Part shown: one piece after another, positions 2,922 through 22,607 of the stretch | Layout of the letters: each line of letters starts with the position of its first letter | Numbering within the stretch: position 1 is the first letter of the stretch | DNA from: a virus | Virus record (IMG/VR): IMGVR_UViG_3300032288_002790 | Coordinates: 1 to 22,607 of that record | Reading direction: 5' to 3' (one strand) | DNA length: 22,607 bases | Notes under the pieces: generated by a model | Told to the model about the DNA's origin: nothing | The model's input: the letters and a program-made list of their open reading frames with translations, nothing else | Database searches by the model: none | Translations under genes and position numbers: made by a program

Positions 2922-4162
2922 CAGAACGCTCCGCCAGCGACGCCAGATGTCGCTTTCAAATACCCGTTGACAGTGAGTCCAGACGCCTGCAGAAGTAGTA
3001 GCTGAAGGCCAAGAATTGAAAACCCAAGCTCTCCAGACGCCGGCCTGTACATGCCGGTATTCGTCTCAAGTGCGAAGTTCAAGGGTGGAGTGCCGACGCT
3101 GCCGTTTGTCAGGGAAATCGTTGATGCCCCGGCAGCAATGGTTGATGCGTTGTACAAATTCACCGAGTCGCAGATCAGTATGACCTGCTGCCCGGCCGGG
3201 ACGGTGGCAACCGCGCTCCCTGGCGCCCCCGTAGTCAGCGTGACCGTGTAGCCAGAGGGGGTGCCGTCAGTCTGGTTGGTGATGTAGTACACCGCGATGG
3301 TTTGCGGGACAACGACAGTGACGTTTGACGACAGGACGCCGGTGAACTTCTGAATCGGATTTGCGGCCTCGGACGCTGTCAAGGTGTAAGACCCCGACGA
3401 CACCGCCTTGGTGTTCTGCGTGAAACTGAAGTCGATGTTCCTGCCGATGCCGACAGTGAAGAAGGCAGAACCAGAGCAGCAGACGATGGCAGAGTCCGCG
3501 GGCTGAAGGATCAGCGACGCGTTGCCGTTGATCAGATCGCCGCCAGACGGAGACACCGTCAGAGTGCCCGTGCCCCCATTTCGCAGCAGGATGAACCAGT
3601 TGTTGCCCAGGGTCGCGGACGCCGCAAGCGATATCGTTCCGGCCCCGGCCGTCCACACAAAGGCGCCGGCTCGATCTGCGACCCCAGCGGTGAACGGCGA
3701 CGAGAACGTCTGCACCGGGTGCGCTGTGTTGAGCGTCGCCCCAATGACGGTCAGGCCGTAGCCCACGAGGCTTGTCGCGTCTGCAGTGGACGAACCGACG
3801 CCGAACGAGATGATGCCCCAGGTGCCAGCCTCGTCAGGGTTGTCCGTGATGTAGATGTACTTCGCCTCGCCGGCCGCCACCACGATGATCGGGTTGCCGT
3901 CGTAGTCCGCCACCGTGAACGTGTTGGCGCCCACGTTGCGGATCAACGCATCCTGGCCCACAGACGCCTGATTGGCGGGCGGCATGCGCATCGTCAGGCC
4001 GCCGGCCGTGGCCGTCACGTTCATGATCCGCGCCGCATAGTTGGGCGTGGCGTTGCCGTTGATCGGCCACTCCAAGACGATGTTGGCCGACAGCGTGATG
4101 CTGCGATACGAGACGTCCGTCGGGACGATGACGTTGCCGGTGAACGGACTGTTGAAGCTCAT
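2921..4162 (-). CDS. Tail fiber-like structural protein (413 aa)
   Basis: I start this gene at the ATG at 4162, which overlaps the adaptor TGA as ATGA and has a GAGGG element four bases before it. A longer upstream frame is in shadow of the adaptor gene. The N-terminus (MSFNSPFTGNVIVPTDVSYR) probably anchors to the tail. The body is a series of Ser/Thr/Gly-rich beta segments with little charge. The C-terminal 60 residues contain NFALETNTGMYRPASGELGF, a motif common in phage long fiber and appendage proteins, and the protein ends GGAF. There is no enzyme motif. Position between adaptor and nozzle supports a tail appendage. Whether it binds the receptor or is a structural collar protein cannot be told from the sequence. 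Confidence 0.8.
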   Translation of the reverse strand: MSFNSPFTGNVIVPTDVSYRSITLSANIVLEWPINGNATPNYAARIMNVTATAGGLTMRMPPANQASVGQDALIRNVGANTFTVADYDGNPIIVVAAGEAKYIYITDNPDEAGTWGIISFGVGSSTADATSLVGYGLTVIGATLNTAHPVQTFSSPFTAGVADRAGAFVWTAGAGTISLAASATLGNNWFILLRNGGTGTLTVSPSGGDLINGNASLILQPADSAIVCCSGSAFFTVGIGRNIDFSFTQNTKAVSSGSYTLTASEAANPIQKFTGVLSSNVTVVVPQTIAVYYITNQTDGTPSGYTVTLTTGAPGSAVATVPAGQQVILICDSVNLYNASTIAAGASTISLTNGSVGTPPLNFALETNTGMYRPASGELGFSILGLQLLLLQASGLTVNGYLKATSGVAGGAF

Positions 4163-4791
4163 GCATCCCTCGCAATCGTTTGCCGGTCGCCGATCCGAGC
4201 CACGTCCTCGGTCTTCAGCACCTGCATCACTTGGTCGTACTGAGCCTTCCACAGCGGCACACGCTCGTCATTCTTGAGGAACGGCATGGCCTGCAGCAGA
4301 GCCCCGTACAGAAGCGCCTGGGGCGCGTATTGGGTGAACCAGTTCGACTGGTTGGAGGAGTCCAGCGGCTGCGAGCGCTCGTAGTACAGCACCTCGTAGT
4401 CGTACGCCGCGGCAGGCGTCGGCGCAACCAGCCAGTGCGTGTAGTCGTAGTCGCAGTAGTACAGCGGCGTGTCCGTCAAAGCGGGATCGGGCCAATACTC
4501 CCGCAGGTACTCGTACTTGCGCAGCAGCACCGGCCGGCGCTCTCCGGCCACCGTGACGTTGATGGAGACCGTCTTCCGCCACCGGGCCGGCTTGTCGATC
4601 GTCGCCTGACCCTGCGTCATCGTGCTCGTGGCCACCGTCAGGTTGCCCAGGAACTTGAGCTCCGAGGCGATCACCTGCTCCGCCAGCATGATGAAGGTCG
4701 GGATCTTCTCCAGCGTAGACGCGTCGGTGCGCTCCAGGTAGCTCCGGATGTCCAGCACCAGACTGTCGTAGGTCATCACTACAGCAGACAT
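4159..4791 (-). CDS. Head-tail adaptor protein, SU10 adaptor-like (210 aa)
   Basis: The sequence MTYDSLVLDIRSYLERTD near the start, an N-terminal helical hairpin (IPTFIMLAEQVIASELKFLG), the RWRKTVSINVTVAGERRPVL beta segment and a helical C-terminus (YAPQALLYGALLQAMPFL, then a KAQYDQVMQVL helix) match the adaptor family of SU10-like podoviruses. These adaptors form a ring under the portal and connect it to the nozzle. I chose the ATG at 4791, which overlaps the upstream TGA (TGATG) and follows an AAGGTG element. In-frame GTGs at 4797 and 4794, and an ATG at 4776 that gives MTYDSL directly, are alternatives. Coupled to the fiber gene downstream through ATGA. Confidence 0.82.
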   Translation of the reverse strand: MSAVVMTYDSLVLDIRSYLERTDASTLEKIPTFIMLAEQVIASELKFLGNLTVATSTMTQGQATIDKPARWRKTVSINVTVAGERRPVLLRKYEYLREYWPDPALTDTPLYYCDYDYTHWLVAPTPAAAYDYEVLYYERSQPLDSSNQSNWFTQYAPQALLYGALLQAMPFLKNDERVPLWKAQYDQVMQVLKTEDVARIGDRQTIARDA

Positions 4792-5180
4792 CACCACACC
4801 TTCTTCTTGATGGAGTCAGGCTGCGGGACGTACTGCTGCCCGCGCTTGGTCCCTTCCCGCTTCGCCCGGGTTGTCGACGCGTACTCAGAAGGTGTCAGCT
4901 TCTCGCGTGCGGCCTTGGGCAAGTACCGTTCGCCGGTGGCCTCCGGCCCCTGCGTGGACGGTTTCCCCGAGCGCGTTCCCCAGTCCTCACGCGTCCACCG
5001 CGCAAGGGCATTATCCGCCCTCTGGGGGCCTTTGTAGCCCCCGCCGCTACGTTGGTATTGCTGAGTCGCCATTTGCGCCTTACGGGCGCTCCATTGGCCT
5101 GGAGAGCCCCCTTTGCCAGACGCCTTGACGTTGGCGACGATGCGCTTCCACTTGGCAGGATCGGTCTTGACTGCGCTCAT
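4791..5180 (-). CDS. DUF5872-like basic protein (129 aa)
   Basis: A strongly basic protein with the pattern KWKRIVANVKASGKGGSPGQWSARKAQ, then GGGYKG, RWTREDWGTRSGK, GERYLPKAARE and a Lys-rich end. I recognise this as the layout of DUF5872, a family scattered through large viruses and phages whose function is unknown to me. No membrane segment is present. The ATG overlaps the lysozyme TGA (ATGA), and its own TGA overlaps the adaptor start, so it is coupled on both sides. The many Lys and Arg residues would allow nucleic acid binding, but this is inference. It may be a virion or packaged protein; there is no evidence for a lysis role beyond its position. Confidence 0.75.
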   Translation of the reverse strand: MSAVKTDPAKWKRIVANVKASGKGGSPGQWSARKAQMATQQYQRSGGGYKGPQRADNALARWTREDWGTRSGKPSTQGPEATGERYLPKAAREKLTPSEYASTTRAKREGTKRGQQYVPQPDSIKKKVW

Positions 5181-5680
5181 CTCAGGAACAGCGCACGTTC
5201 ATCCGTACGCCGCCTCACAAGCCCGGGAAGCTCCCGGCCGCCGGCCTTCGTCCACTGCATGAACGCGTCAGCCGCCCCTTCAATGTCGCCGCGGTTGGCC
5301 TTCATCCTGATCTGGCTGCGCTGCAGGTTGCCTAGACCGGCGTTGTACGCAAAAGAGACCAGAGCGTCAAACCGCCCTTGACGACCAGCACAGCCGGGAA
5401 CCAGACGTAGAACACCTCGCTCAAAAGCAGCGACGTCAGCGTCGAAAAGCGCATCAATCTCCTGCTTTGACCAGACACGGTTGTGCTCCGGGCGTAGCGG
5501 GTAATCCCGCCTGATGAAGCCTTCATACCCCTCCCTGCGAACCATGGGAAGCTGAATCTGGTCTTGGTACAGGACATGCCCGTACCCGACCGTCCAGATG
5601 TGCGCCGGGCACAGGTACGGCTTTGTCCTGTAGCCCTCGTACCGGTGCATCAGCGCAGCGCCCTCCGGGCTCAGCTTCAC
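5177..5680 (-). CDS. Endolysin, GH24 phage lysozyme (muramidase)
   Basis: Lysozyme of the T4/P22/phage 21 group, which cuts the MurNAc-GlcNAc bond of peptidoglycan. The catalytic signature E-8-C-5-T is complete: Glu15, Cys24 and Thr30, the last within TVGYGH. Further typical motifs are FNALVSFAYNAGLGN-like (RFDALVSFAYNAGLGNL) and the C-terminal GLVRRRTDERALF. I chose the GTG at 5680 because it overlaps the upstream TGA as GTGA, has GGAG six bases before it, and gives the usual start MKLSPEG; a GTG at 5692 is the longer alternative. The length of 167 residues is normal. No signal peptide or signal-anchor is visible, so export should depend on a holin, encoded just upstream in this operon. Confidence 0.93.
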   Translation of the reverse strand: MKLSPEGAALMHRYEGYRTKPYLCPAHIWTVGYGHVLYQDQIQLPMVRREGYEGFIRRDYPLRPEHNRVWSKQEIDALFDADVAAFERGVLRLVPGCAGRQGRFDALVSFAYNAGLGNLQRSQIRMKANRGDIEGAADAFMQWTKAGGRELPGLVRRRTDERALFLR

Positions 5681-6180
5681 TTCTTGCTCCACTGCCTGCT
5701 GCCGAACCAGAACCCGATGATCCCGCCCAGCATGGCCATCTCGTCCTCGCTGAAGATGATCGCCGTCACCCGGATCAGGTCATCCACCGACTGGATCAGG
5801 CCCGGATGCTTCCAGACGTACAGCGTCAGAGCAGCGTTGATCAGGACCAACTCGATGATGAAGATGTAGGTCACGGTCGGCCGCACCGTGCCGACGTAGT
5901 TGGCAACCCAGCGGCTGGCCTTCTCCAGCACCTTCTCGTCGTGCCTGAGCGCCGCCTCGGTCATCTGCGCCTCGGTCTGCATCGCCACCTGCTCGACGCG
6001 GATCTCCTCCATCTTGGCCTGGGAGGCGTACCCCTGAGCCGCAAGCTGGAGCTCTCGCTCGGTCTGCAGACGCGCCAGGGCAATCTCGTGCTTCTGATCA
6101 GACTTGTTTTGGAAAAACTCCAGCAGCTTGGGCAGGCCGCTGATCAGCAGACCGCCAAGAGTAGACAGAAGCGACAGCAT
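5677..6180 (-). CDS. GTA-type 3TM holin-like membrane protein (167 aa)
   Basis: The N-terminus is hydrophobic or amphipathic (1 to 20). A long charged helix follows (about 27 to 92, rich in Glu, Gln, Arg and Ala, likely coiled coil). Two membrane segments lie at about 101 to 122 and 148 to 163, and the protein ends FWFGSRQWSKK. This plan and the GFWFGSR ending match the 3TM holins named after gene transfer agent holins (GTA_holin_3TM). Such proteins are thought to permeabilise the inner membrane for endolysin release. The ATG overlaps the preceding TAA as TAATG and has AAGGGGG upstream. It sits directly before the lysozyme gene, which supports a lysis role. A second holin candidate lies three genes upstream, so which of the two triggers lysis is open. 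Confidence 0.78.
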   Translation of the reverse strand: MLSLLSTLGGLLISGLPKLLEFFQNKSDQKHEIALARLQTERELQLAAQGYASQAKMEEIRVEQVAMQTEAQMTEAALRHDEKVLEKASRWVANYVGTVRPTVTYIFIIELVLINAALTLYVWKHPGLIQSVDDLIRVTAIIFSEDEMAMLGGIIGFWFGSRQWSKK

Positions 6181-7088: not shown

Positions 7089-10000
7089 TCACAGGAACAT
7101 GAAGAAGTTTGCCGAAGAAGGAGCGTTAACAAACAGCCACCCAAAAGATGATGTGCCTGTAGAGCTTGGGCCGGCGTACCAAGAATTTGATGGATAAGCG
7201 CTATTGCCAACTATATTAAGGTAATCAACATTGGCGGCAATACCAGCATCCATTTTCACCAAAGATCCACCAGATACGGTGAGCAAGTTCCCAGCATAAC
7301 CCCTAGCCGTCCAACTTCCAAGTATGTACTGCGTTGTCCCGGACATAGATATTGTGTTTGCGACCAAAACGGAGCTTCGCATGTTTTTGAATTTGTTGTC
7401 GCCGGTAATTGACAACTGACCAACTCCAGCCTGCTCTATGGACACATCGCCATAAAACACCCCTCCGCCGGCAAATGTTTTAGGAGAAGAGCTGGTCATC
7501 TTAATAACGCCATCGCCAGAAACAAAACACTGATCTACCACACTCCAAGACGACCCAATACTCCACGCTCCAGAGCCAACTGCAATAGTTTTCGGCGCTG
7601 AAGAAGTCGCTGTAAATGACCCAGACAACAATACGTCGTTGCCATTTGCGTCTATCGTTACATCAGACGACGTAAGGCTAATTTGCTTGCCGGAAAAATT
7701 GTCTTGCAAAACGACGTATGTGTATGGGGCGGCTACTTTGATGATTTGCGGGAAGGTCTTTCCTGCGCTTGTTATCTGCTGCACAGACCTTCCGGCAAAA
7801 CTAATACCATAGCCCGCAAAAAATTCTGCAACAGTTGACCCGGAGCCGTTTGTCCAATTGCCGTAAACAAAAAGGTCAGAAGTACCGACAGTCCGAAGTG
7901 TCATTGTATTCGACGTTCTCCCAGACATATCAATTGAGCCTACCTGATAGCCCGTCTGCACATTAACAGTTGCCCCAGAATTTAGCCCAACTGACTCAAA
8001 AATGCATGTGTCTTGAGCAAGAGGAAAATTATTGAGCGCCGGAACCCCGCCACTTGACGTCGCCCAAGCATTCGAATACCACTCGCCTCCCGCCGGAAGG
8101 TTCCAATACTTGTTTGCTGGCGGAGTAAATATGATGCCAACGTTTCCTTTGCAGTCGCCAATTCGAGACCCAGAAATAGGGGATGCAGCGCCATCTACAA
8201 AAATATCCCTAAAGTCAACATCGGCAATTGATGCGGCGGAGCATGTGATTGTTCGCGCTTGACCAATTTGGTCAGACGCAATCAACCTTCTTGCCGTCGC
8301 GTTTGAACCAGCCTGACACAAAAGTGTTCCGGAGACGATTTGATTTGCAAAAATTGACACCGCGCGCACGATCGTGCTGCTATGAGATTCAAAAATCAAA
8401 TTATAGAAAGCATTGGCTCCACTTATATCAAGAGACCCGCCCGCTGCGGAAGTGACTATTACTTGATAAAAAGTTTTTCCGTTTCCACGGAACGTGGATG
8501 TTGTTCCAAAATATGCCCCCGACAGATAAATTTGCGAAGTTCCGGAGACGACTGTTAAATCTGCCGCCGAATTTTCCGAGTCGCCAAAAAGCAAACGGCC
8601 GCCGCTCAAGGTCGTAATGGCGGACCCAAAATCTATTGACCTAGACCCAATGTATTCGCTAACCAGATCTGTGCATGTGAGAGAGTTTGCGCCGCAAGAA
8701 ATTGCGCCTCTACGCACATAAAGCGCGCGCTTTGTGTACAGGCCGCTTCCAAGAGACCACCCGCAATTTATTCCGTCAACAAAAATTTCGCTATCAAACT
8801 GCCGCACGTTAGTAGAAATAGTCTTGCCGGAAGTAGAGCCGGACAACACAATATAGCCATTGTAAGTTATCGCGCCGGCAGACACGGGGAGAGTAAAGTC
8901 GCCATGAAGAATAAGATAGGGCCCAGACCCGGCCAAAGCGACGCCCGAATACAGAGTCAGCTTGTTGCACCTACTTGTGGTGTTTATTGTTAATGTGTAA
9001 GACGCAGGACCAGAATTCGCATCGAACACAACGTCGTCGAGGCTTGTTGGAATTGGCGCCCCACCAGGGCCGCCAGAAGACGTTGACCACCTAGACGTAT
9101 TACTCCAGTTTCCAGTTCCACCAACCCAATAAAGAGTTCGAGGAGAAGGCGCGGCAGTGCGGAACACTGGAGCACCAGCAGTTCCAGTGCTATTTGCGCC
9201 GGCGTAAAACTCTGCCGGAGAGCCTGACGACAGGCCAACAGATCCCATGTTCAAATAATCAACACCTGACACAGCAGAGCCAGCAATTGAATGGCCGCCA
9301 ACGCCAGTCAAGGACACAATGTTTCCCAAAGACCCGGAAACAGACCACTTGCCAAAAGTCTGGTAGGCATCAAAATTGATTACATGGGCGACTGTTTTTG
9401 TGGAATCAATCTCCGCAAACGTATTTGAATCTTGAATTGTCAAGGTGCTTGATGCCGAGGCGCCGCCTATGGTTAATTTATTGTACGAAAAATTGGCGCC
9501 AACAAAAACTCTGCTGGACGTTGTATTATTGGACAAAAGAATGTTTGCGGAGTTTTTGTAAAAATTCAAATTTGTATTAGCCAAGTACCAGCAAGTTCCG
9601 GAGCCAGTGACATTCCACAGGCCAGATCCCATTTTTAAGGTTCTATTGTAAACAGTATTGAACGCCAAAACAGTTTCTACGGTCACATTGTAAGTGACCG
9701 CATCAAAAGTCCCGCGTTTAAGATACAACGACGATGCATTTAGGTTATCGCCAAGAGTGACAACTGCGCCTTCGCCTTCAATAACAATCTGCGGAAGGAG
9801 TTTTCCAGCAGTGACAATAACTCCTGTTCCGGCAATAACCATATTGCCAGATGTCCATGTCAACGTCATTCCTGAAGAAAATGTGACGCTTCCATATATG
9901 TAAATGGAGGACGCTCCCAACATGGTCCCAGAAAATCCGGCGCAATTTAATGACTTGGCGTCAGTGTTCCCAAACGCAATTGTCACAGTTCCAGTTGAGT

Positions 10001-10133
10001 TGACATCGAAAAACACATCATCATCACTGGTGGGCACGCTGGCGCCGCCCGCGCCCCCAGACGTGGTAGCCCACTTGGTGCCAGCAGTGCCGTCCCAAGA
10101 CGCAGTCCCGCCAACCCAGTACCTATCGGCCAT
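7089..10133 (-). CDS. Giant three-module beta-repeat protein (1014 aa), probable tail spike or adhesin
   Basis: The product consists of three similar modules starting at residues 4, 334 and 675. Each opens with a Tyr-Trp motif (YWVGGTASW, YWVGGTGNW, YWNLPAGGEW) and a SGG motif. The first two modules also share PTS-DDV-FD. Each continues with many short beta strands rich in Ser, Thr, Gly and Asn and recurring GKTF or GKLL-PQI/VI turns, and closes with VDYLNM, VDFRDI or VDYLNI. Two of the three also end in FYAG or WYAG and STGT. This suggests repeated beta-helix or solenoid domains. There is no catalytic motif, signal peptide or membrane segment. The protein ends in FFMFL. It lies between a fiber-like gene and the holin, so a receptor-binding spike or adhesin is likely. 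G+C is clearly lower than in the neighbours from about 10020 downwards, which suggests horizontal exchange. GGAG lies eight bases before the ATG. Confidence 0.88.
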   Translation of the reverse strand: MADRYWVGGTASWDGTAGTKWATTSGGAGGASVPTSDDDVFFDVNSTGTVTIAFGNTDAKSLNCAGFSGTMLGASSIYIYGSVTFSSGMTLTWTSGNMVIAGTGVIVTAGKLLPQIVIEGEGAVVTLGDNLNASSLYLKRGTFDAVTYNVTVETVLAFNTVYNRTLKMGSGLWNVTGSGTCWYLANTNLNFYKNSANILLSNNTTSSRVFVGANFSYNKLTIGGASASSTLTIQDSNTFAEIDSTKTVAHVINFDAYQTFGKWSVSGSLGNIVSLTGVGGHSIAGSAVSGVDYLNMGSVGLSSGSPAEFYAGANSTGTAGAPVFRTAAPSPRTLYWVGGTGNWSNTSRWSTSSGGPGGAPIPTSLDDVVFDANSGPASYTLTINTTSRCNKLTLYSGVALAGSGPYLILHGDFTLPVSAGAITYNGYIVLSGSTSGKTISTNVRQFDSEIFVDGINCGWSLGSGLYTKRALYVRRGAISCGANSLTCTDLVSEYIGSRSIDFGSAITTLSGGRLLFGDSENSAADLTVVSGTSQIYLSGAYFGTTSTFRGNGKTFYQVIVTSAAGGSLDISGANAFYNLIFESHSSTIVRAVSIFANQIVSGTLLCQAGSNATARRLIASDQIGQARTITCSAASIADVDFRDIFVDGAASPISGSRIGDCKGNVGIIFTPPANKYWNLPAGGEWYSNAWATSSGGVPALNNFPLAQDTCIFESVGLNSGATVNVQTGYQVGSIDMSGRTSNTMTLRTVGTSDLFVYGNWTNGSGSTVAEFFAGYGISFAGRSVQQITSAGKTFPQIIKVAAPYTYVVLQDNFSGKQISLTSSDVTIDANGNDVLLSGSFTATSSAPKTIAVGSGAWSIGSSWSVVDQCFVSGDGVIKMTSSSPKTFAGGGVFYGDVSIEQAGVGQLSITGDNKFKNMRSSVLVANTISMSGTTQYILGSWTARGYAGNLLTVSGGSLVKMDAGIAANVDYLNIVGNSAYPSNSWYAGPSSTGTSSFGWLFVNAPSSANFFMFL
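7092..10124 (-). repeat. Three tandem protein-level modules of about 330 residues
   Basis: Module 1 spans about 9144 to 10124, module 2 about 8118 to 9137 and module 3 about 7092 to 8111. The phase is set by the Tyr-Trp opening motif (residues 5-6, 335-336, 676-677) and by the closing VD-(Y/F) motif (291, 639, 969). Spacing is 330 and 341 residues between openings and 348 and 330 between closings. The repeats are visible at protein level and are well diverged in DNA, so they are old duplications or recruited homologous modules rather than a recent tandem copy. Confidence 0.75.
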
Positions 10134-11290: not shown

Positions 11291-12364
11291 TCACCTCGTG
11301 TAGCAAGCGATCGACGGCGCGAAGTAGATCGGCGACTTGTCGCGCTCCTCCTGCTCCGCCAGGGTCAAATACTTCTCGGCCTGCTGCTCCAGGTACTGTA
11401 TCCTCGCCATGTCGACGCCAGGAAGCTCCATGGCCATCTGGTGCGCCAGCATGTTCTGCACCGCCAGATACCAGCGCTGCGGGATCTCAAGTTCGCCAGA
11501 CAGTTGGCCCACGTCCATGATCTGGCGCGAGTACCAGAGCGTCATCTGCACGAAGGTGTCAGACGGCACCGGCCACAGGTACAGCTTCGCCTGGGGGATC
11601 GTGCGGTTGACCCAGAACTGAAACGGCTGGTTGGCCGTGAAGTTCTTGTTCGGCAGGTTCGTGTAGTCGTCCCGATTCAGCCGGGCCATCGTGATCTCGG
11701 TCGAGTTGTTGCCGAGATAGAACTCCCGCAGAGACAGCGTCGACCCGTTCCTGGCGCGGATCCGGTAGAACTGCACATCCTGGCCCGGGTCGATGTCGTA
11801 CCACAGCCACTCGCCGTCCACCCACGGCTGCACGCCAGGGTCGTACAGCGTGCTCCACGTCAGGCCGTCAGGCGATCCTTCGAAGACGCAGTCGATGTCA
11901 GCCGACACCCCAGGCATCACGCCAATCGAGCCGATGTAGACCGGGTTGCCGTTGCCGTAGTTGACGGTGATGCTGCCGTTGGCGCTCGTCTGAGTGCAGA
12001 CCGTGTCGATGTTGTTGTCGAACGCGAACGCCACGACGCCACCGGCGCTGGAGGTGTATCCGCCAGTGCTGTTGGGCGTCGGCCTGCTCATGCGCCGATA
12101 CAGCGCCTGCAGCACGTCCACGCCGCCCACAGGCAGGTCGTAGATGTACTGGTTGGCGTTCAGGCCGATGACCTTCTTGCCGATCGCCCAATACTGGATC
12201 CCGATGTTGATCAGGTTCGACAGCAAGTAGAACAGCATCGTGCGCGACGCCTGGACCTGCTCCGAGGTCAACTCCTCGGCCAGCTTGCCGCAGCGCCGCG
12301 CCCCGTGGTCGATCAGCTTCTGGACCGATACGAGAGTCGTGCCAACAGTGCCTGAGTACGCCAT
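11291..12364 (-). CDS. Head-tail adaptor / tail accessory protein with inserted discoidin-like domain (357 aa)
   Basis: The N-terminus (MAYSGTVGTT, then LIDHGARRCGKLAEELTSEQ and an FYLLSNLINIGIQYWAI helix) and the C-terminal half (QFWVNRTIPQAKLYLWPVP, LWYSRQIMDVG, ELEIPQRWYLAVQNMLAHQM, then a Gln/Glu-rich helix) look like phage tail-accessory adaptors. Between them, residues about 102 to 218 resemble an F5/8 type C (discoidin) fold: AFDNNIDTVC, ITVNYGN, IGSIGV, FEGSPDGLTWSTL and FYRIRARNG. These domains often bind carbohydrates. I chose the ATG at 12364, which overlaps the preceding TGA as TGATG; two GTGs lie just upstream in frame. This is one of two adaptor-like genes; which one contacts the portal is not clear from the sequence. 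Confidence 0.8.
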   Translation of the reverse strand: MAYSGTVGTTLVSVQKLIDHGARRCGKLAEELTSEQVQASRTMLFYLLSNLINIGIQYWAIGKKVIGLNANQYIYDLPVGGVDVLQALYRRMSRPTPNSTGGYTSSAGGVVAFAFDNNIDTVCTQTSANGSITVNYGNGNPVYIGSIGVMPGVSADIDCVFEGSPDGLTWSTLYDPGVQPWVDGEWLWYDIDPGQDVQFYRIRARNGSTLSLREFYLGNNSTEITMARLNRDDYTNLPNKNFTANQPFQFWVNRTIPQAKLYLWPVPSDTFVQMTLWYSRQIMDVGQLSGELEIPQRWYLAVQNMLAHQMAMELPGVDMARIQYLEQQAEKYLTLAEQEERDKSPIYFAPSIACYTR

Positions 12365-12612
12365 CACCACCCCGGACAGTTCCAGCGCTTCATGGACGCA
12401 CGAGACCGGCTTCCAGGCTCGCTCTTGCGGGCCACCGGGCCCATACGGGCGCAGAATGAATCACGCCGCGGCCCACCCTCGGGCTGCGGAGCCTTGAGGT
12501 TTGACCCGGTCTCGCGGTTGTACTTCTCCCGGCCCTTCGCGGTCAAGCCCGCTCCGCGCTCAGCCGAGAGCTTCTCACCACGTCCAATGGCCAGACTGAC
12601 GTTCTTGGCCAT
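12364..12612 (-). CDS. DUF6321-like small basic protein (82 aa)
   Basis: The product contains GAGLTAKGREKYNRETGSNL, then APQPEGGPRRDSFCARMGPV, and ends SMKRWNCPGW. I recognise the pattern G-LTAKGR-KYN, GG-RR-SF-ARM as the DUF6321 type found in phages and giant viruses. Function is unknown to me. The protein is basic, with Cys54 and Cys79. The ATG at 12612 lies three bases after the stop of the preceding small gene, and its TGA overlaps the adaptor ATG. The conserved Arg, Lys and Gly residues would fit nucleic acid or lipid contact, but this is a guess. A structural or packaged protein is suggested by the neighbours. Confidence 0.8.
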   Translation of the reverse strand: MAKNVSLAIGRGEKLSAERGAGLTAKGREKYNRETGSNLKAPQPEGGPRRDSFCARMGPVARKSEPGSRSRASMKRWNCPGW

Positions 12613-13917: not shown

Positions 13918-14883
13918 TCAACAGGCCCCGCCGCGCTTCTTCGGCACAGGCTCCACCGTGACAGCCTTCTCGGTCTTGGTCACAGCCCCAGGCGCAGGCG
14001 AACGGTTGAACATGCCCTTGACCATCTTGGGGATGCCCGAGAGCATATCGCCAAGGGACGGCTCGCCGCGCTTCTGCTGCTCCTCAAAGGCCTTGTAGGC
14101 CTTGTCGTTCTCAGCCTGCTGCAGCCTCGCCTTGGCCTCCGCCGGGATGTCCATCGACTTGATCTTGTCGTAGGCATCCACCTTGCCGCCGTCCTTGAAG
14201 GTGCCAGACAGCCGGTCGATGCTCACCGGCTTGGACGGAGATTTGCGACCTTGAGGCATCGCCACGGGGGCACCAGAGTCAACACGACCCCCCGTGGCGT
14301 AGGCTTTTTTTGCGGCACCACCCGTCTTGTAGCCGCCGCCGTTCGCCTTCGCCACGCCACCGGTGGCGTACCCGCCGCCATTGCCCAGCTTCACGCCGCC
14401 GGTCTTGGCAGGCGAGTTGTCGGGCGTGGCCGTGTCCACCTTCGTGGTACGCACGGAGCCGCCCATAGCGTAGCCGCCTTGGGCGTTGGCCACGCCCCCC
14501 GTCTTCAGGCCCTTGTGAGCCTTGCTGGCGGGCTTGGCGGCGTGAGCGGACATCTTCTCGCCCAGGCCCTTGATGGCCTTCATCTCGGCCTTGTGCTCAG
14601 CCTTCGGCTCGCCACCCTCGGCCATCATGCGGCCGGCACGCCCCACAGGGCCCGCAGGAGCCGCCGCAGCGGGCAGAGCCTGCATCGCCCTACGGCGAGC
14701 CGCCAGAGACGGCTTGGCGGGGCTCATGGCGGCCATGGAGCCACCGCGAGCCGGCATGCCCGGCATCGGACGCATCGGGGCAGCGCCGCCCATCTGCATC
14801 TTGACCGGGCCGCCCTTCTTGAGCTTGAGCTCGACGGACGGCTCCGTCGTCTCCATCTTCACCATCGGCTTGAATTGGCCCAT
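13918..14883 (-). CDS. Gly/Lys/Ala-rich repeat protein (321 aa), function unknown
   Basis: Low-complexity protein with three parts: a Met/Pro/Ala/Gly-rich N-terminal half, a repeat region (128 to 200) with units such as TGGVANAQGGYAMGG, GGVKLGNGGGYATGG and AKANGGGYKTGG, and a helical C-terminal part (about 237 to 295) with DAYDKIKSMDIPAEAKARLQ and EEQQKRGEPS. It ends KKRGGAC. I know similar Gly-rich ATGG-type proteins from uncultured phage genomes, always without function. There is no membrane segment or catalytic motif. AAGGAG lies eight bases before the ATG. Placed after the head genes, it may be a packaged, surface-bound or flexible virion protein. The repeat region could have arisen by slippage. 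Confidence 0.78.
   Translation of the reverse strand: MGQFKPMVKMETTEPSVELKLKKGGPVKMQMGGAAPMRPMPGMPARGGSMAAMSPAKPSLAARRRAMQALPAAAAPAGPVGRAGRMMAEGGEPKAEHKAEMKAIKGLGEKMSAHAAKPASKAHKGLKTGGVANAQGGYAMGGSVRTTKVDTATPDNSPAKTGGVKLGNGGGYATGGVAKANGGGYKTGGAAKKAYATGGRVDSGAPVAMPQGRKSPSKPVSIDRLSGTFKDGGKVDAYDKIKSMDIPAEAKARLQQAENDKAYKAFEEQQKRGEPSLGDMLSGIPKMVKGMFNRSPAPGAVTKTEKAVTVEPVPKKRGGAC
14284..14502 (-). repeat. Degenerate Gly-rich amino acid repeats
   Basis: Residues 128 to 200 of the 321-residue protein repeat the pattern TGGV(A/K)-x-(N/Q)-GG(G)Y(A/K)(M/T)GG about four times, with unit length 15 to 18 residues. In the DNA this appears as recurring GCCGCCG- and GTGGCGTA-like runs. Such imperfect repeats can change in number between relatives. 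Confidence 0.65.
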
Positions 14884-15569: not shown

Positions 15570-16484
15570 TCAGACGCCCGGCGTGCCGTACATCGCCCGC
15601 GGGTCGGTGAAGCCGACGTCGTACCGCTCGGTGGCCTTGTAGCGCATCGAATCGGTCTCGAAATCGCCTTCCATGGTCTTCTCCAGCTTGCGGCGCATCA
15701 GGAGCTTCATGCCCTCCGGCGCGTCGGTCTGGACCCACCATGCGGTCGCCGAAGTCAGACGCGACAGAACCGCCGCGCCCTCGTCCAGCAGACCGATCGA
15801 CTTGATCGGGTTGATGTCATTGTTGGCGTTGCCGGCGCGCAGCACGCTCTTCAGCAGCACCTCGGCCTGGAAGACGTTGCCCGGGGCCACCACCAGTTGG
15901 CGGGGCACCAGACGGATCTTCTTGCCGTTGTTGTCCACCGCCTGACGGATCTGGATCAGCATCTGCTCCAGCGACGTCTGCGAGAGGTTCGCGGCCGTCG
16001 TGAGCAGGTTGCTGAACGTCCCGTTGACGATGGGGTGGGCGTTGCTGTTCAGTTGCACGCCGTCGCCGCCCGGGTAGGACGAGTTGAAGGCGCGGTTCAG
16101 CACGTTGGCCGACAGCGTCTCCTTCGTCTCGATCAGGCTCTGCGCGAGGTGACGCGCATACACCTGCCCGATGCGGATGTGGTCGCCGTCCTCAACGAGC
16201 ACCTTGGTCAGCGCGAACGCCAGACCGTACACGTTGTAGACGTAGCGCTTCAGGAACAGCACACCGCCCTGCTGGTACGACACAGGCGTGCCGTCCGGCA
16301 GTTGCGGCGCCGCGCCGAACCCGTAGAGCACGGGCTCTTCGTGGTAGTTGCGCGGGATGCCCTGCTGTTCGCGGAAGACCCGCGACCATTCGTCGGTGCG
16401 CTGATCGTAGACGCCATCGAAGCATTCGTTCAGGATCGGTTCGACGATCGAACGAAAGTCGGTACTTCTCATCGGAGCTGCCAT
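15570..16484 (-). CDS. Major capsid protein (HK97 fold)
   Basis: The 304-residue product carries the pattern of the podovirus/Mu gpT-like HK97-fold capsid proteins. It has a helical N-terminus (FRSIVEPILNECFDGVYD), KRYVYNVYGLAFALTKVLVE, the spine-helix region with QVYARHLAQSLIETKETLSA, the beta region IRLVPRQLVVAPGNVFQAEV, and GNANNDINPIKS. The C-terminal part reads DAPEGMKLLMRRKLEKTMEG, DFETDSMRYKATERY and TDPRAMYGTPG. It builds the icosahedral shell together with the scaffold and portal. AAGGAGG eight bases before the ATG is the strongest ribosome binding site in the window, as expected for the most abundant protein. No protease gene or delta domain is obvious. Confidence 0.93.
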   Translation of the reverse strand: MAAPMRSTDFRSIVEPILNECFDGVYDQRTDEWSRVFREQQGIPRNYHEEPVLYGFGAAPQLPDGTPVSYQQGGVLFLKRYVYNVYGLAFALTKVLVEDGDHIRIGQVYARHLAQSLIETKETLSANVLNRAFNSSYPGGDGVQLNSNAHPIVNGTFSNLLTTAANLSQTSLEQMLIQIRQAVDNNGKKIRLVPRQLVVAPGNVFQAEVLLKSVLRAGNANNDINPIKSIGLLDEGAAVLSRLTSATAWWVQTDAPEGMKLLMRRKLEKTMEGDFETDSMRYKATERYDVGFTDPRAMYGTPGV

Positions 16485-16497
16485 GGTTCAGCCCTCC

Positions 16498-17097
16498 TTA
16501 GATTGCGTTGACAGGCGCATTGAACTGCGACTGGTTGACGGTCACGCGAACGATCGTGAACGCATCGCCCCAGGCGTTGTCCGGGTACGGCGCCAGATCT
16601 CGGATCAGCATCTGTGCTGCACTGCCGGCGCCCGCAAGGGTGCTTGACAGCGTGCATTGCGACAGACCAGTCGTGGTCGACCCGTTCGTCGTGTTGGTCA
16701 GATCAGCCTGATCCCCGATTGAGTCCTGCGTCAGCGATCCGTCTGCCTGAATTTCGTACACGATGTTGGGATCGTTGTAGAAGTAGGCAACAACAGAGCC
16801 GACTTGGAAAGACTCGTTGGCGGGCCAGTAGTTCGACACCCGACGGCGGCCCGTGGGGTCCGTCCACTCAACGCCAGCGAAGGCGCCGAGGAAGTCGTCG
16901 CCGGTGCCGGCGACTTCGATGTACCCGCCGGTGCTCATCTTGACGGGCTGGCCCTTCAAGATGTTGGACGCGTACCCGAGGGACACGTTCCCGGTAGTGG
17001 AAACAGCTTGAATTCCGTTGGCGAGCGCCTGTGCGCGATCCAGACCACTGGGATGGAACGCGGGACGCAGGCCGAACGGAGCACTCGTAGCAGACAT
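16498..17097 (-). CDS. Putative decoration or minor head protein (199 aa)
   Basis: The product starts MSATSAPFGLRPAFHPSG and has a beta-rich body, with GNVSLGYASNILKGQPVKMS, FLGAFAGVEWTDPTGRRRV and a hydrophobic VGSVVAYFYNDPNIVYEIQ. It ends in a beta-strand region without membrane segment. The PFGLRP start and LGAFAGVEW-TDPTG motif are familiar from proteins that precede the capsid gene in environmental phages and that are taken to be capsid cement or minor head proteins. The ATG at 17097 has AGGAG six bases before it. It lies 13 bases before the capsid gene, which fits co-expression. Confidence 0.82.
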   Translation of the reverse strand: MSATSAPFGLRPAFHPSGLDRAQALANGIQAVSTTGNVSLGYASNILKGQPVKMSTGGYIEVAGTGDDFLGAFAGVEWTDPTGRRRVSNYWPANESFQVGSVVAYFYNDPNIVYEIQADGSLTQDSIGDQADLTNTTNGSTTTGLSQCTLSSTLAGAGSAAQMLIRDLAPYPDNAWGDAFTIVRVTVNQSQFNAPVNAI

Positions 17098-17113: not shown

Positions 17114-17656
17114 TCACCCGATGAACATCGGGGTCTTGACGTTTCGATCCATATCGCCGAAGCCTTCACCTTCGACCTGACCGAGGCTCTTGCCCCGGCT
17201 GTCACGCGCACCCTGCAGGTTTTCCACTTGGACGCGGATCTTGTCCGCCTCTTCCATGGGCCTTTCGTGGTGCATCTGCAACATGACGTCCTGGTAAATC
17301 TCCATGGGGAGCTTGTACAGGCGCATCTCGTTGCATGCGATGAAACCTACGTCTTCGCCAGCCTTGACCTTGTAGTTCTCAAACCCAGGCAACTCATCCG
17401 CGCGAACGGGAACGTAGCCGAGTCGGATCCGCTTGTCGATGCTGTCGTAGCTGTTGGTTGTCGATAGCCAGCAAAGGTGCCATCCCGGGAGTTCCGGAAC
17501 CTTCGGCAGCGCTGATTGTGTCCACTCGTCACTCCACATCCTGCGACGTTCCTGTGCCGAGTGAAACTGTTCCTCCGGGCCCTGCCGTACAACGTCCTCG
17601 CTTGCGCGAGTTTCGCGTCCGCCAGCGGACAGAGATTTCTTGAGACGACCGTCCAT
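17114..17656 (-). CDS. Conserved phage protein between scaffold and head genes (180 aa)
   Basis: The N-terminal part is Arg/Glu-rich and likely disordered or helical (1 to 45). The middle has LPGWHLCWLSTTNSYDSI, DKRIRLGYVPVRADELPGFE and VGFIACNEMRLYKLP, and the C-terminal helix includes YQDVMLQMHHERPMEEADKI. I have the impression that the WHLCWLSTTN and LGY-PV segments recur in proteins at this position in related phages. The function is unknown. The start ATG at 17656 has AGGAG nine bases before it, two bases after the scaffold stop. A head completion or assembly role is suggested by its place. Confidence 0.78.
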   Translation of the reverse strand: MDGRLKKSLSAGGRETRASEDVVRQGPEEQFHSAQERRRMWSDEWTQSALPKVPELPGWHLCWLSTTNSYDSIDKRIRLGYVPVRADELPGFENYKVKAGEDVGFIACNEMRLYKLPMEIYQDVMLQMHHERPMEEADKIRVQVENLQGARDSRGKSLGQVEGEGFGDMDRNVKTPMFIG

Positions 17657-17658
17657 CT

Positions 17659-18597
17659 TCAGTTGCTCCTGCTTCGTGCTTCTTGCGCGTACCGCTTGAT
17701 CATGTTGGCCCGTTTCTGTGGGTCATCCCACAGTCCGGCGTCTTTCATCGCCCTCACCTGTTCAGGTGACAGCACGAAAGTCGAACGGCTTGCGCCGCCA
17801 CCGACCTCGCGTCCCGATCCAGTTACCACGCTGCGGGGCCTACTCCTTCGAGAATGGTCATCAACGGAGTCAGTATAGCGATGCGGCAGACGCTTTTGCA
17901 AACGCCGGTCGAGCTCCTCCCAGTAGTCCTGAGACGCCGGATCCCAACCCTCTTCGGTGAGTTTACGGTCGACCACCTTGGCGATCGCCGTGTCCTCGTC
18001 ACTGCCCGACGGGTCATACCAGTCGTTGCGATCCATCCAGGAATTCGCCAACCGGGTCACCTGCGGATTGACCGCGCCCTGCTGCTTGGTAGCCTGGGCA
18101 GCACGGTCCCTCAGGCTCTTCATCGCCTCGATCTTGCGGCGGGCCTCGTACCACATCTCATGCGCACGGTTTAACGCCTCCCCGTCAGATGCCGACGTGG
18201 CGTCCTTCATCTTCTGCGCGGCGTAGCGGTAGCGAAGCTCCTCCTCCTCAATCGCCTTGTCCAAGCGAGCAAGGTCCGAAGAGTGCGTCTTGCGCTCGAC
18301 CACAGACAGGCGCTCCATGAGCTCCTGGTTCTGGCGCTGCAGCATCTGCAGGCGCTGGTCCTTCTCTTCACTGGTGCGGCGCACGAGGTCCTTCTTCGCA
18401 CGCCTGCGGGCCCTACGAGCCTCCCGAACGGCGTCGGAGTCCCCTGGCCTGTCCACGTCACCGCCGTCGTCTCCTGCGGCCTCCTGGGCCGTTTCCTGGC
18501 CGTCCGGCGGTGCGACGTCACCGGGGAGTTCGACGACAGCGCTGCCGTCCTTCTCCTCGACCACGTCGATCTGTTCGTCTTGCTTCTCGGTGCTCAT
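17659..18597 (-). CDS. Scaffold-like protein (312 aa)
   Basis: The acidic, Asp/Glu/Gly/Pro-rich N-terminus (1 to 55) is followed by long charged helices (about 57 to 165, including RRARRRAKKDLVRR and MLQRQNQELMERLSVVERK) and a helical region around 200 to 240. The C-terminal segment (278 to 312) is an Arg/Lys-rich helix: SPEQVRAMKDAGLWDDPQKR, then NMIKRYAQEARSR. A long helical body with a basic C-terminal end is the plan of phage scaffolding proteins, in which the C-terminus binds the capsid protein. Its position between portal and capsid agrees. The ATG overlaps the co-chaperonin TGA (ATGA). No protease domain is seen. Confidence 0.85.
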   Translation of the reverse strand: MSTEKQDEQIDVVEEKDGSAVVELPGDVAPPDGQETAQEAAGDDGGDVDRPGDSDAVREARRARRRAKKDLVRRTSEEKDQRLQMLQRQNQELMERLSVVERKTHSSDLARLDKAIEEEELRYRYAAQKMKDATSASDGEALNRAHEMWYEARRKIEAMKSLRDRAAQATKQQGAVNPQVTRLANSWMDRNDWYDPSGSDEDTAIAKVVDRKLTEEGWDPASQDYWEELDRRLQKRLPHRYTDSVDDHSRRSRPRSVVTGSGREVGGGASRSTFVLSPEQVRAMKDAGLWDDPQKRANMIKRYAQEARSRSN

Positions 18598-19028
18598 AGG
18601 AATGCTTTCATCTCCAGCGGGTTGCCGGTGACCTTGGCGATCACCTCGTGGTCGTTCAGGATCATGAACAGCGCCGGGTCTTCGAGGTCATCCTCGCCCG
18701 GAACCTTCACCTCCCAACGGTCGCCGCCCCACTTGGGCACGCGGATGTAGTCGCCGGCTTCACACCAGCTTCCCTCCGGCCAGGGCTCCATCGAATCCCG
18801 CTTGCGGAACGCCAGCGGCCCGATCTCAATGACCTTGGCCACCATGTTCTGCCACTTCTCGGTCTCCTTGGTCTCCGCGACCAAGATGATTCCCGACTTC
18901 GTCGCCTTCTTCTTGGCTCGCCGCAGTTGCACCAGGATGCGGCCACCAAGGGGTTTCGCGCCAGGGTCCACGCTCGGGAATGCCCAAGCCATCTCGGCGC
19001 TGTCAAGCGCCACGCCCGTCTCGCTCAT
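18594..19028 (-). CDS. Phage GroES-like co-chaperonin (144 aa)
   Basis: From residue 26 the protein follows the GroES fold: PLGGRILVQL (26 to 35), a mobile-loop-like stretch RRAKKKATKSGIILV (36 to 50) with G-I-I-L at its end, VAKVIEIGPLA (63 to 73), a GDYIRVP strand (92 to 98), then KVPGEDD and FMILNDHEVIAKV (121 to 133). GroES caps the GroEL ring and uses the hydrophobic tripeptide of its loop to bind it. The protein is about 45 residues longer than bacterial GroES; the first 25 residues and part of the middle are extra. It overlaps the preceding gene by 26 bases and the scaffold gene by ATGA. No GroEL is present, so it would work with host GroEL, probably on capsid protein, as T4 gp31 does. 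Confidence 0.9.
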   Translation of the reverse strand: MSETGVALDSAEMAWAFPSVDPGAKPLGGRILVQLRRAKKKATKSGIILVAETKETEKWQNMVAKVIEIGPLAFRKRDSMEPWPEGSWCEAGDYIRVPKWGGDRWEVKVPGEDDLEDPALFMILNDHEVIAKVTGNPLEMKAFL

Positions 19029-19200
19029 CGTCGTCTTCCATCAGTTTGTTCAAGATCGCCAGGGCTTCTCCGAGCCCGGCGTACTGTCCGATCATGCGCT
19101 GGTACGACTCCCAGTTCGCTGCATTTCCCACAGCGAGGGACGAGGCTATCTCAGCCTGCCTAGCCGTAATCGCGCCGATCAGGTCTCCGATCGTCCTCAC
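19003..19200 (-). CDS. Small helical phage protein (65 aa)
   Basis: The GTG at 19200 forms a GTGA overlap with the stop of the preceding small gene. The product MRTIGDLIGAITARQAEIAS... is mostly helical. The YQRMIGQYAGLGEALAILNK segment lies at about 34 to 53, and the tail is acidic and then basic (DDDERDGRGA). Its 3' end overlaps the co-chaperonin gene by 26 bases. Similar short helical proteins stand between portal and co-chaperonin or scaffold genes in related phages as far as I recall, with no known role. Head assembly is a plausible place for it. Confidence 0.8.
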   Translation of the reverse strand: MRTIGDLIGAITARQAEIASSLAVGNAANWESYQRMIGQYAGLGEALAILNKLMEDDDERDGRGA

Positions 19201-19358
19201 TTCTTCTTGCTCGCCTGCGACAGCCCTCCTTGCGCCGGCTTGCCATTGCCGGACTCACCCTTCGCTTGCATCGACTGGCCGTCGACCTTGGCGCCCATCG
19301 CCATGCGCTTGTGCTGGGGCACAAGAACGCTCTTCTGCTCTTGATCACTGGTAGCCAC
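19197..19358 (-). CDS. Very small basic protein (53 aa) between portal and co-chaperonin genes
   Basis: The frame runs from a GTG at 19358 to a TGA at 19199 to 19197. It overlaps the portal 3' end by 14 bases and the next gene by GTGA. AGGAG lies six bases before the GTG, good evidence of translation. The product starts MATSDQEQKSVLVPQHKRMA and is hydrophilic, Lys/Gln/Gly-rich, with a C-terminal KKK. No domain is recognised. It is close to the usual length limit of gene callers and could easily be missed. A scaffold- or portal-associated role is inferred only from position. Confidence 0.75.
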   Translation of the reverse strand: MATSDQEQKSVLVPQHKRMAMGAKVDGQSMQAKGESGNGKPAQGGLSQASKKK

Positions 19359-21894
19359 TTGGTGCTCCTTTCATCGAGTAGTCAATGACGGTCTTGTCCT
19401 GGTCGAGTCTCAACCGGGCCGCATCCCGCGTCAGGCGGGCCGTCTCAATGCGCTCCTTCGTTTCCTGGTCACCCTGTGCGATGGCCAGCTTCAACTGCAG
19501 TTCCTCAATGGCGAGGTCCTTCTCGTCCATCTGCTTCTGTGCCGCCAGTTGCAGCTTGGCCTGATTGTCGGCCGCTTTCAGTTGCATCTCGGCCTGATCA
19601 CGCGCCTGCCTGCGCTGCGTCTCAGCCATGCTCGTCTGCAGCAGCACCTGACCGTCCGGCGTCAACTCAGGCTTCGGCTTGAACTGCTCCAGCGTCTTGA
19701 CCATCTGCTGGATCACCGGCATCGTCTGAGCAAGCGTCTGCTCAGCGTCCATCGCCACATGACCGGCCGCCGCACCGTACAGCTTGTCGATCTCGGCCGG
19801 ATCCTCTGCCTCGGCATAGTCATCAGCCTTGCGACCCAGCGACCGCGTCACATACCCGTTCATGCGGCCCAGATACCACAGCGCGAAGTGCTGCTTGATG
19901 TGCTCCATCATCTTCGGCAGCACGTTGGGCGCGATCATCGGGTTGCCACCGAACACCGGGTCCGAGGCGTACTTCAGATGCGTCACGATGTGCGAGAAGT
20001 GGTCCTGCTCCAGGTACGCGAACGCCGACTGACCGATCGTCATCGCCACGTTCTCGTTGGCCGCATCCAGCTTCTCAGGCGCAGGCGTGTCCGTCATCAG
20101 TTCGTTGACGCCCGGCACCTTGATCTGCTTCAAGAAGCGCATGACCACCGCCCGGCGGTTGAACAGGTCCGGGTGCTTCTCCATCATGGCCATGACCGAC
20201 TGGGTCTGGGCCATCCGCTGCGTCTCGCTGAAGATGTGCGGGTCCGACACCGGGATGACGTCCGTCACCCGGGCAAAGTCCTCCCGGCGGATCTCCAAGT
20301 CCTCGACCACCTCGCCGCGGCGCATGTCGTCCAAGTACCACCGGTTGATCCGGCTCAGCACCTTGAGCACGCGAGACTGCGATTCGTGCAGCCGGGCATG
20401 GATCGCCGAGAACACAGCCGCGCCCTGCTCAATCAGAGCCTGGGTAGTGCCCACCGGCGTGTTCGCATTGACGTCGGCGATCTTCTCCTCGGCCGTCGTC
20501 ACCACCCCCTTGGCCGCACCGGTGAGCCAGCCCAGCAACTGGAACAACACCGGGCTCGGCGGGTTGAACGGCATCGGCATCGCCAGCTTGCGGACGTCGT
20601 CAACCCCAGGCGCAGCCTCAATTTCAGCCACTTGGGTCACTTCGACCTGCTGAGACTGCCCCGAAACCTTCGCCCCCTTGAGCTTCAGGAGCGTCGCAGC
20701 GTTGTTGATGTGCGCAGAGTCCAGCAAGGCCCTCAGAGCGCCTGTAAGGGCCGCTGAGAGGCCTCCAATGAGGTGCGGCAGGCCCACGGCGTACGCTCCG
20801 CGCCACGGGATGAACTTGAACTCGACCACCCAGTCGAGTTTCGTCATCGTTTCGTCGCCTTCCTCCCAGTTTCGGTACAGCCCAATGACCTCAGACTCCA
20901 AGTCGTCGATCATCAGGACGTAGGGGGCCATCTCCCCCTTCGAAAACTTGTCGTTTTCGAGTTCCAGCCATGTGTAGATGTGGTAGACGCGACGAACACC
21001 GTCTTCGTTGTCGTTTTCCGACCGTCCTTCGATCTTGTCGTTGGCCTTTTGAGCCGCAGTCTGCTCCGGATCCATCGTGGCACGGATAAAAGTGCCATCT
21101 CGGTACAGTTTTGAGGCCACACGGCGCTCAAATTCGTGCCTTGAGAGGTCATGAACCTCCGTTGCACGCGGCGCAGTGTAGAAATTCGACGCCGCGAAGG
21201 GCAAAAGCACGTTGTCGATGGGCAAAAACTCGGCACAAGGACGCTTTTTGTCCTCGTCGTACCAGAGTTTGAGGTATTGCGATCCACCAAGAGGCAATTG
21301 CGTGAACAATTGCTCCTGCTCGTCGCGGAATTCCTCGATTTGCTCGGTCAACTGCCAATTCATGAAGTCGCGCTTGCGCTCCGCGATGTCAGTTTTCTCC
21401 TGATCGACGTCACCGAGGATCTTCGTGCGCGTCGGCCCGTCAGCCGGGAACAGTTCGCGGATGGCGCGGGACGCAAAGTCGATGCACGCCTCGGCCATCA
21501 CCGGGTGTACGACCTTGCTGGCACCCGCAAACGAGGCGCCACCAGGGGCGTCGTTGCCCATCCCGGTGCGGCGGATGCCGTCCTCGTACTGCTTGTCCCG
21601 CTGCTTGCGGGCCTCGCGGTCCTTCTCCACCAGTTGGATGTACTTCAGGGCCATCGAGTTCAGGTCGATGGAGTCCAGCACGTCGCTGTCGGCGAGGTTC
21701 TGGTAGAAGTCCTCGTTGTCCATCGGCCCGTTGGTGTCCAGCGTCACCACCGCAGAGCCATCAGGAAGCTCCTGGATGTCCGACTCGGACAGTTCAAGGT
21801 CCACCTCCACCCCAGGCGTCTCGCCATCGGCGTCGTCGGGCATGCCCCCCACGAAGCGGTTGAACTCTGGGTCGATCGGGAACTCGGTTGCCAT
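19345..21894 (-). CDS. Portal protein (P22-like, podoviral, 849 aa)
   Basis: The portal forms the twelve-subunit ring at one capsid vertex through which DNA enters and leaves. The product has an acidic N-terminus, a helical region with ASKVVHPVMAEACIDFASRAI, wing/stem segments (RDFMNWQLTEQIEEFRDEQE; PFAASNFYTAPRATEVHDLS) and the central WRGAYAVGLPHLIGG. It also has the stem/tunnel helix region with ADVNANTPVGTTQALIEQG, as in P22-type portals. A long charged helix (about 755 to 832) probably forms the barrel found in P22. P22 gp1 has 725 residues. I place the start at the ATG at 21894, which has AGGG eight bases before it; the GTG at 21903 would overlap the preceding stop. The terminase genes are expected nearby but are not in the window. 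Confidence 0.93.
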   Translation of the reverse strand: MATEFPIDPEFNRFVGGMPDDADGETPGVEVDLELSESDIQELPDGSAVVTLDTNGPMDNEDFYQNLADSDVLDSIDLNSMALKYIQLVEKDREARKQRDKQYEDGIRRTGMGNDAPGGASFAGASKVVHPVMAEACIDFASRAIRELFPADGPTRTKILGDVDQEKTDIAERKRDFMNWQLTEQIEEFRDEQEQLFTQLPLGGSQYLKLWYDEDKKRPCAEFLPIDNVLLPFAASNFYTAPRATEVHDLSRHEFERRVASKLYRDGTFIRATMDPEQTAAQKANDKIEGRSENDNEDGVRRVYHIYTWLELENDKFSKGEMAPYVLMIDDLESEVIGLYRNWEEGDETMTKLDWVVEFKFIPWRGAYAVGLPHLIGGLSAALTGALRALLDSAHINNAATLLKLKGAKVSGQSQQVEVTQVAEIEAAPGVDDVRKLAMPMPFNPPSPVLFQLLGWLTGAAKGVVTTAEEKIADVNANTPVGTTQALIEQGAAVFSAIHARLHESQSRVLKVLSRINRWYLDDMRRGEVVEDLEIRREDFARVTDVIPVSDPHIFSETQRMAQTQSVMAMMEKHPDLFNRRAVVMRFLKQIKVPGVNELMTDTPAPEKLDAANENVAMTIGQSAFAYLEQDHFSHIVTHLKYASDPVFGGNPMIAPNVLPKMMEHIKQHFALWYLGRMNGYVTRSLGRKADDYAEAEDPAEIDKLYGAAAGHVAMDAEQTLAQTMPVIQQMVKTLEQFKPKPELTPDGQVLLQTSMAETQRRQARDQAEMQLKAADNQAKLQLAAQKQMDEKDLAIEELQLKLAIAQGDQETKERIETARLTRDAARLRLDQDKTVIDYSMKGAPSGYQ

Positions 21895-21899
21895 TCTTG

Positions 21900-22607
21900 T
21901 CACCCTGCTGCTTTGTCAAGAGCGCCGGCCTTCGCCTTGCGTGCTGCGCCGCCCTTCTTCTTCCCAGTATATTCCTTCATCAACTCTTCAAACATTTTCA
22001 TCTGATCGACGTACTGCCGATCAATTTTTTCCCGAGGGCCCATGAACTTCAGCATGTTGAACTCCTGGACGCCCGGCTTGAGCTTTGACCTTGCGTACGC
22101 CGTCGAACTCGGGAATGCAATTTCCGCTGGGATTGGGTATTTGCTTTGCCCAATAAATTCTCCAGGGATATCGACATCGTATGTTGGGTGAGCGCTTGGG
22201 TACTGACGCAAATCCACTCCCGGCTGCATCTTGCCGATTGAGAACCCACTGGTGCCAACTTCAACGTCGCGCAGCGATGGCTCTGTAATGCCGAACAAGA
22301 CGTCGGAGCCCTGGCGCAAGCCGAGTTTTTCAGTGACCGTCGGCTTCATCAAGGTCTCGGCAATGTGCTTGCGCAGGTTGGGGTCGATCTGAGCCTGCAG
22401 CAGAACATCCATCGGGTCATCAAAGCCCGCGAAGTTGGGGAATTGCCCGTACTTCGGGCTGCCTTTGCGAATCTCGCCTTCCAGCAGTTCCCTTTGCGCC
22501 TTGTTGAGCTTCTCAGGCTGTTGGTACGCCAGCAGCGCGTCCAGGTTGTGCAGTGCGTAGTTGGTCGACTCAGGAGACATCTTGATGTACTGACCCAGCA
22601 CAGGGGC
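21900..22607 (-). CDS. C-terminal part of an unidentified protein, cut by the right edge
   Basis: The frame is open to the right edge (235 codons visible) and ends in a TGA at 21902 to 21900, so only the 3' part is present. A GTG at 22601 could start a protein, but the frame continues beyond it. The product is mostly soluble and helix/loop-rich. Recognisable stretches include SPESTNYALHNLDALLAYQQ, YGQFPNFAGFDDPMDVLLQA and LRQGSDVLFGITEPSLRDVE, and the Lys/Ala-rich end is KKKGGAARKAKAGALDKAAG. I do not recognise a family. It precedes the portal gene, where terminase or internal virion genes are usual; no terminase motif is seen in this part. Confidence 0.82.
   Translation of the reverse strand, partial: APVLGQYIKMSPESTNYALHNLDALLAYQQPEKLNKAQRELLEGEIRKGSPKYGQFPNFAGFDDPMDVLLQAQIDPNLRKHIAETLMKPTVTEKLGLRQGSDVLFGITEPSLRDVEVGTSGFSIGKMQPGVDLRQYPSAHPTYDVDIPGEFIGQSKYPIPAEIAFPSSTAYARSKLKPGVQEFNMLKFMGPREKIDRQYVDQMKMFEELMKEYTGKKKGGAARKAKAGALDKAAG

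Follow-up and report, generated by a model that had tools for sequence, protein, structure and literature searches.

Why should a tailed phage carry a gene for a GroES-type co-chaperonin in the midst of its head genes, and which protein would be folded under the lid that it encodes? The question is raised by a reading frame on the minus strand of a 22,607-nucleotide viral sequence (the whole stretch analysed, hereafter the window), which stems from a water-borne phage. The answer that we consider probable, drawn largely by analogy, is that the phage-encoded GroES sits as a lid on host GroEL, and that its chief task is the folding of the major capsid protein (MCP) of the phage itself. The bases for this explanation are homology to the Cpn10 family, the predicted fold, a conserved tripeptide in the mobile loop, the absence of a GroEL gene from the related records searched, and co-inheritance with the MCP.

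Identity of the gene and its position among the head genes

The reading frame at 18594..19028 (minus strand) runs for 144 codons without a stop, from an ATG start to a TGA stop. The preliminary description, made from the letters alone, had taken it for a GroES-like gene from three stretches, all of which are present in the frame (PLGGRILVQL, the loop KKKATKSGIILV, and GDYIRVP), and profile searches bear this out. The protein matches Pfam Cpn10 (PF00166) with 30.4 bits (E 3.9e-7), above the curated gathering cut-off of 21.1 bits, and the PHROG 3188 profile 'co-chaperonin GroES' with E 8.3e-10, while individual PF00166 matches are found in 110 of 112 aligned homologues. A profile of the homologues run against the PDB retrieves Cpn10 chains with E-values down to 7e-17, from plastids, Thermus, mycobacteria, other bacteria and mitochondria. 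Judged by sequence, the protein is thus a member of the Cpn10 family and of phrog_3188. It falls outside the cellular GroES equivalogs, for which its best NCBIfam score is 23.3 bits, far below the 96 needed. Matches of the protein to designed 'Cake' proteins in the PDB were set aside as due to chance. Comparison with nine relatives gives pN/pS values of 0.04-0.20, indicating purifying selection on the GroES gene, and the antisense frames accumulate stops in the more distant relatives; together these observations identify 18594-19028 as a real gene and rule out a chance or antisense reading frame.

The gene lies within a head block encoded on the same strand and overlaps both of its neighbors. 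The start of GroES is preceded by a Shine-Dalgarno-like GGAAGA (19034..19039, minus strand) 5 nt ahead of the ATG, and is overlapped by 26 nt by an upstream reading frame of 65 residues (19003..19200, minus strand); small reading frames occupy this position in the relatives too. At the other end, the GroES stop shares 4 nt with the start of the next gene in an ATGA (18594..18597, minus strand), so that the overlapping starts and stops of the preliminary description are real. The ATGA overlap suggests coupled translation of GroES with the following head gene.

That head gene encodes a protein of 312 residues (17659..18597, minus strand; phrog_28737, of unknown function), a conserved neighbor that aligns across nine phages. 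It is followed on the minus strand by genes for a 180-residue protein (17114..17656; aligned across nine phages) and a 199-residue protein (16498..17097; phrog_37556, of unknown function) that adjoins the MCP. The MCP itself, the presumed client of the lid (15570..16484, minus strand; Phage_capsid_4, E 1e-11; Mu-like gpT, E 2.8e-6), thus lies downstream of GroES with three genes between. The portal gene (19345..21903, minus strand; phrog_1216, E 7.9e-18) lies upstream. GroES had been placed between portal and scaffold: the portal stands, while the 312-residue protein is a plausible scaffold candidate from its position and composition and is named as such by no family. All five proteins from GroES to MCP align, in order, across the nine phages that share the head block, and each of the nine gives a GroES profile match (9/9). 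The same five-protein order is found in phages of Caulobacter, Pelagibacter, Roseobacter and the cyanobacterium Planktothrix, as well as in one gammaproteobacterial phage and two Manatee Spring phages.

Several other minus-strand genes of the window are worth recording. Directly downstream of the head genes, 13918-14883 encodes a protein of 321 residues in which Gly, Lys, Ala and Met abound and GGYATGG-like repeats occur; no Pfam or PHROG match was found for it. Two head-tail adaptor-like copies lie about 7 kb apart, which is unexpected: the SU10 adaptor family is matched by 4159-4797 (E 6.7e-26) and by 11291-12370 (E 1.3e-4, below cut-off). A 1014-residue protein (7089-10133) with repeated YWVGGTGNWS-like stretches and no Pfam match is probably a tail fibre or another β-rich surface protein, and 5177-5692 encodes a phage lysozyme (PF00959, E 5.8e-35).

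Predicted fold, mobile loop and the presumed GroEL partner

The AlphaFold2 model of the single chain (mean pLDDT 85.8, pTM 0.81) predicts a Cpn10 barrel. The 18 best PDB matches of the model in Foldseek are all Cpn10 chains (probability 1.00; TM-score by target length 0.58-0.69), and phage GroES proteins are its top matches in a viral structure library. The preliminary description had named structure prediction as a check, and the model shows a GroES-like fold complete with a mobile loop.

This loop (residues about 36-53; 18870..18923, minus strand) is basic, has the sequence KKKATKSGIILV and contains a hydrophobic tripeptide. It is assigned from conservation among 125 representatives and has the lowest model confidence within the Cpn10 domain, as expected of a mobile loop. 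In GroES the hydrophobic tripeptide of the loop (IVL in E. coli) makes the contact with GroEL. The counterpart here is the GIIL motif (residues 46-49; 18882-18893, minus strand). Of the 125 representatives, 114 keep G46 and 109 keep I47; position 49 is Leu in 96 and Ile in a further 21.

Outside the loop the protein is remodelled. The N-terminal extension (residues 1-24; 18957..19028, minus strand) precedes the Cpn10 match, which begins at residue 25; it is predicted to form a helix over residues 3-16 and varies among relatives in both length and sequence. The roof region (residues 70-92; 18753..18821, minus strand), delimited by alignment and column counts, is longer than that of E. coli GroES and different from it, with a GPLAF...WPEGxW motif strongly conserved in the family, and DSSP lists no hairpin there in the predicted model. 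Hence the extra N-terminal residues (about 24, where some 25 had been noted) and the extended middle both hold in the alignment with E. coli GroES.

The extra tails, the remodelled roof and the position in the head block could also fit a Cpn10 fold that has taken on a new role, in head assembly or as a structural component, and no longer works with GroEL. We regard this as quite improbable, given that the GIIL loop, known to serve for contact with GroEL, is conserved over the 125 representatives. On the preferred reading of a lid on GroEL, the partner would have to come from the host: a search that recovered Cpn60 (GroEL) in 14 of 14 control genomes gave none in 13 related records of 53.8-62.4 kb, and the protein, if it is a lid, must therefore use host GroEL. 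That the co-chaperonin is encoded alone, as first described, is in keeping with this result, which for the window, a 22.6-kb fragment, rests on the 13 related records. By analogy with T4 gp31, the protein would form a heptamer and dock on host GroEL through its mobile loop, and the lid-closed chamber would enclose the MCP as client. The longer roof and the tails may adapt the closed chamber to this MCP, as gp31 does for T4 gp23.

Linkage of the co-chaperonin to one capsid protein family

If the lid is made for the MCP, the two genes should be found together. IMG/VR was searched with the MCP alone, yielding 80 loci, 52 of them with at least 3.3 kb of upstream sequence, and GroES with the whole block in order is present in 52/52. 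In two control sets, each with many near-identical phages among its loci, GroES lies near none of 80 HK97-type MCPs and near none of 80 T7-type MCPs. The capsid link that had been proposed in the preliminary description is well supported by this contrast. Phage records in GenBank whose MCP is homologous point the same way, as GroES is in or at the block in 18 of 21. In two of the 21 (vir526 and MW202601) it lies away from the block, elsewhere in the genome; MW202604 has the same MCP coordinates as MW202601, the GroES location having been read for MW202601. The only one to show no GroES is an incomplete 10.8-kb fecal fragment whose MCP is 25% identical. The two relatives with GroES outside the block and the GroES-less, distant and incomplete fragment count against a lid dedicated to the MCP, as does the fact that most double-stranded DNA phages with GroEL-dependent capsid folding use host GroES.

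Across 191 loci the distances of GroES and MCP are correlated with r = 0.84, as high as the correlation between the MCP and the 312-residue protein (0.80). In CRP-901 and MW202675 the portal gene lies about 10 kb away and GroES is still with the head block, beside the 312-residue gene. Position therefore favors a link to the MCP block rather than to the portal; presence and absence are the same for both, since the same phages carry both. GroES is tightly co-inherited with one MCP family and its neighbors. The data are dependent, coming from one lineage and not from many independent gains, so that the co-inheritance gives no independent support for a functional dependence. Because it is inherited together with the capsid genes, GroES very probably helps to fold the shell protein of the phage.

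The same observations bear on two other accounts of the gene. One holds that the protein is a general lid, by which folding capacity is raised or host GroEL is turned towards many proteins of the phage; its position among the head genes would then ensure late expression only. The generic fold and GroEL-contact loop would suit such a role, as would the two relatives with GroES elsewhere in the genome. We nevertheless think it unlikely, since GroES strictly accompanies one MCP family, is found near neither HK97-type nor T7-type MCPs, and remains beside the 312-residue gene where the portal has moved off. The other account, a recently captured host groES with no special role, draws on the near-universality of GroES in bacteria (a match in 11 of the 14 control genomes). 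It deserves next to no credence and was rejected from the deep synteny and the distance correlation: the gene keeps its position in phages that have diverged deeply, its distances track those of the MCP, it is under purifying selection, and its protein falls far under the cellular NCBIfam cut-offs and is only 22% identical to E. coli GroES.

Relatives of the gene are abundant, with at least 504 and at least 591 confirmed in IMG/VR in two scans. A search of genome contigs found 25 loci in bacterial metagenome-assembled and single-cell genomes (Pelagibacteraceae, SAR86, betaproteobacteria and others), and none of the contigs exceeds 63 kb. Most of these loci have the capsid block of the window as well, and they are probably infecting or co-binned phages and not host genes. 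In vir526 (BK063670.1, 4827-5183), assigned to Methanomicrobiales, the MCP is related and the GroES gene lies near the terminase.

Taken further, and tentatively, a deep lineage of tailed phages that includes SAR11 phages, cyanophages and the methanogen-assigned virus might depend on a self-encoded GroES whose remodelled roof and tails are fitted to its own MCP, lid and MCP having coevolved as one module; we would rate this proposal as somewhat less likely than its opposite. The GroES family described here is distinct from the T4 gp31 kind and very abundant, and in several host phyla it goes together with a single MCP family. With natural lid-MCP pairs at hand, it becomes possible to test why a special lid is needed by some capsid proteins and not by others, and isolated phages of Caulobacter, Alcaligenes and Roseobacter are available for the purpose.

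Comparison with known co-chaperonins

A GroES gene at this location is already known, and the window gene is a further case of a known type. Many relatives already have the gene annotated as GroES, and isolates have it at the same place, two Caulobacter phages among them; it belongs to the 13-gene core genome of HTVC023P-type pelagiphages (PMC9599517), and genome maps of the Roseobacter phages CRP-901 and CRP-902 show it (PMC10149686). In the literature searched, which excluded most subscription papers, no statement was found of a GroES-MCP linkage across host phyla. The closest counterparts are in Caulobacter phages RW, GB2A, RLK and KcrB and in Manatee Spring phage MW202545, where GroES is 58-62% identical and the gene order from portal to MCP is that of the window, the differences being sequence divergence and details of the small reading frames between portal and GroES. 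Pelagiphages HTVC023P and HTVC027P have the same block (GroES, 312-residue, 180-residue and 199-residue proteins, MCP), whereas their GroES is about 32-34% identical to that of the window and has another N-terminal extension and a shorter roof.

E. coli GroES shares with the window protein the Cpn10 domain, the fold and the mobile-loop tripeptide. The window protein is about 45 residues longer at 22% identity. Besides an extra N-terminal helix, it has a helix at residues 51-60 that follows the loop, more residues both in the roof and ahead of the final barrel strand, and a C-terminal tail.

Detailed work on phage co-chaperonins has centered on T4 and its relatives, and the window protein had been set beside T4 gp31. 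In lineage the two differ. The gp31 family is phrog_931, which gp31 itself matches with E 3.7e-50 and which the window protein leaves unmatched up to E 1, and orthology was rejected on the separate PHROG families (931 versus 3188) and an hhalign probability of 13%. The predicted model matches the fold of gp31 weakly (Foldseek, E 1.4e-3), and T4 gene 31 lies outside the head genes, unlike the GroES gene of the window. The resemblance is probably one of function, in that the window protein, like gp31, would act as a lid on host GroEL for a capsid protein.
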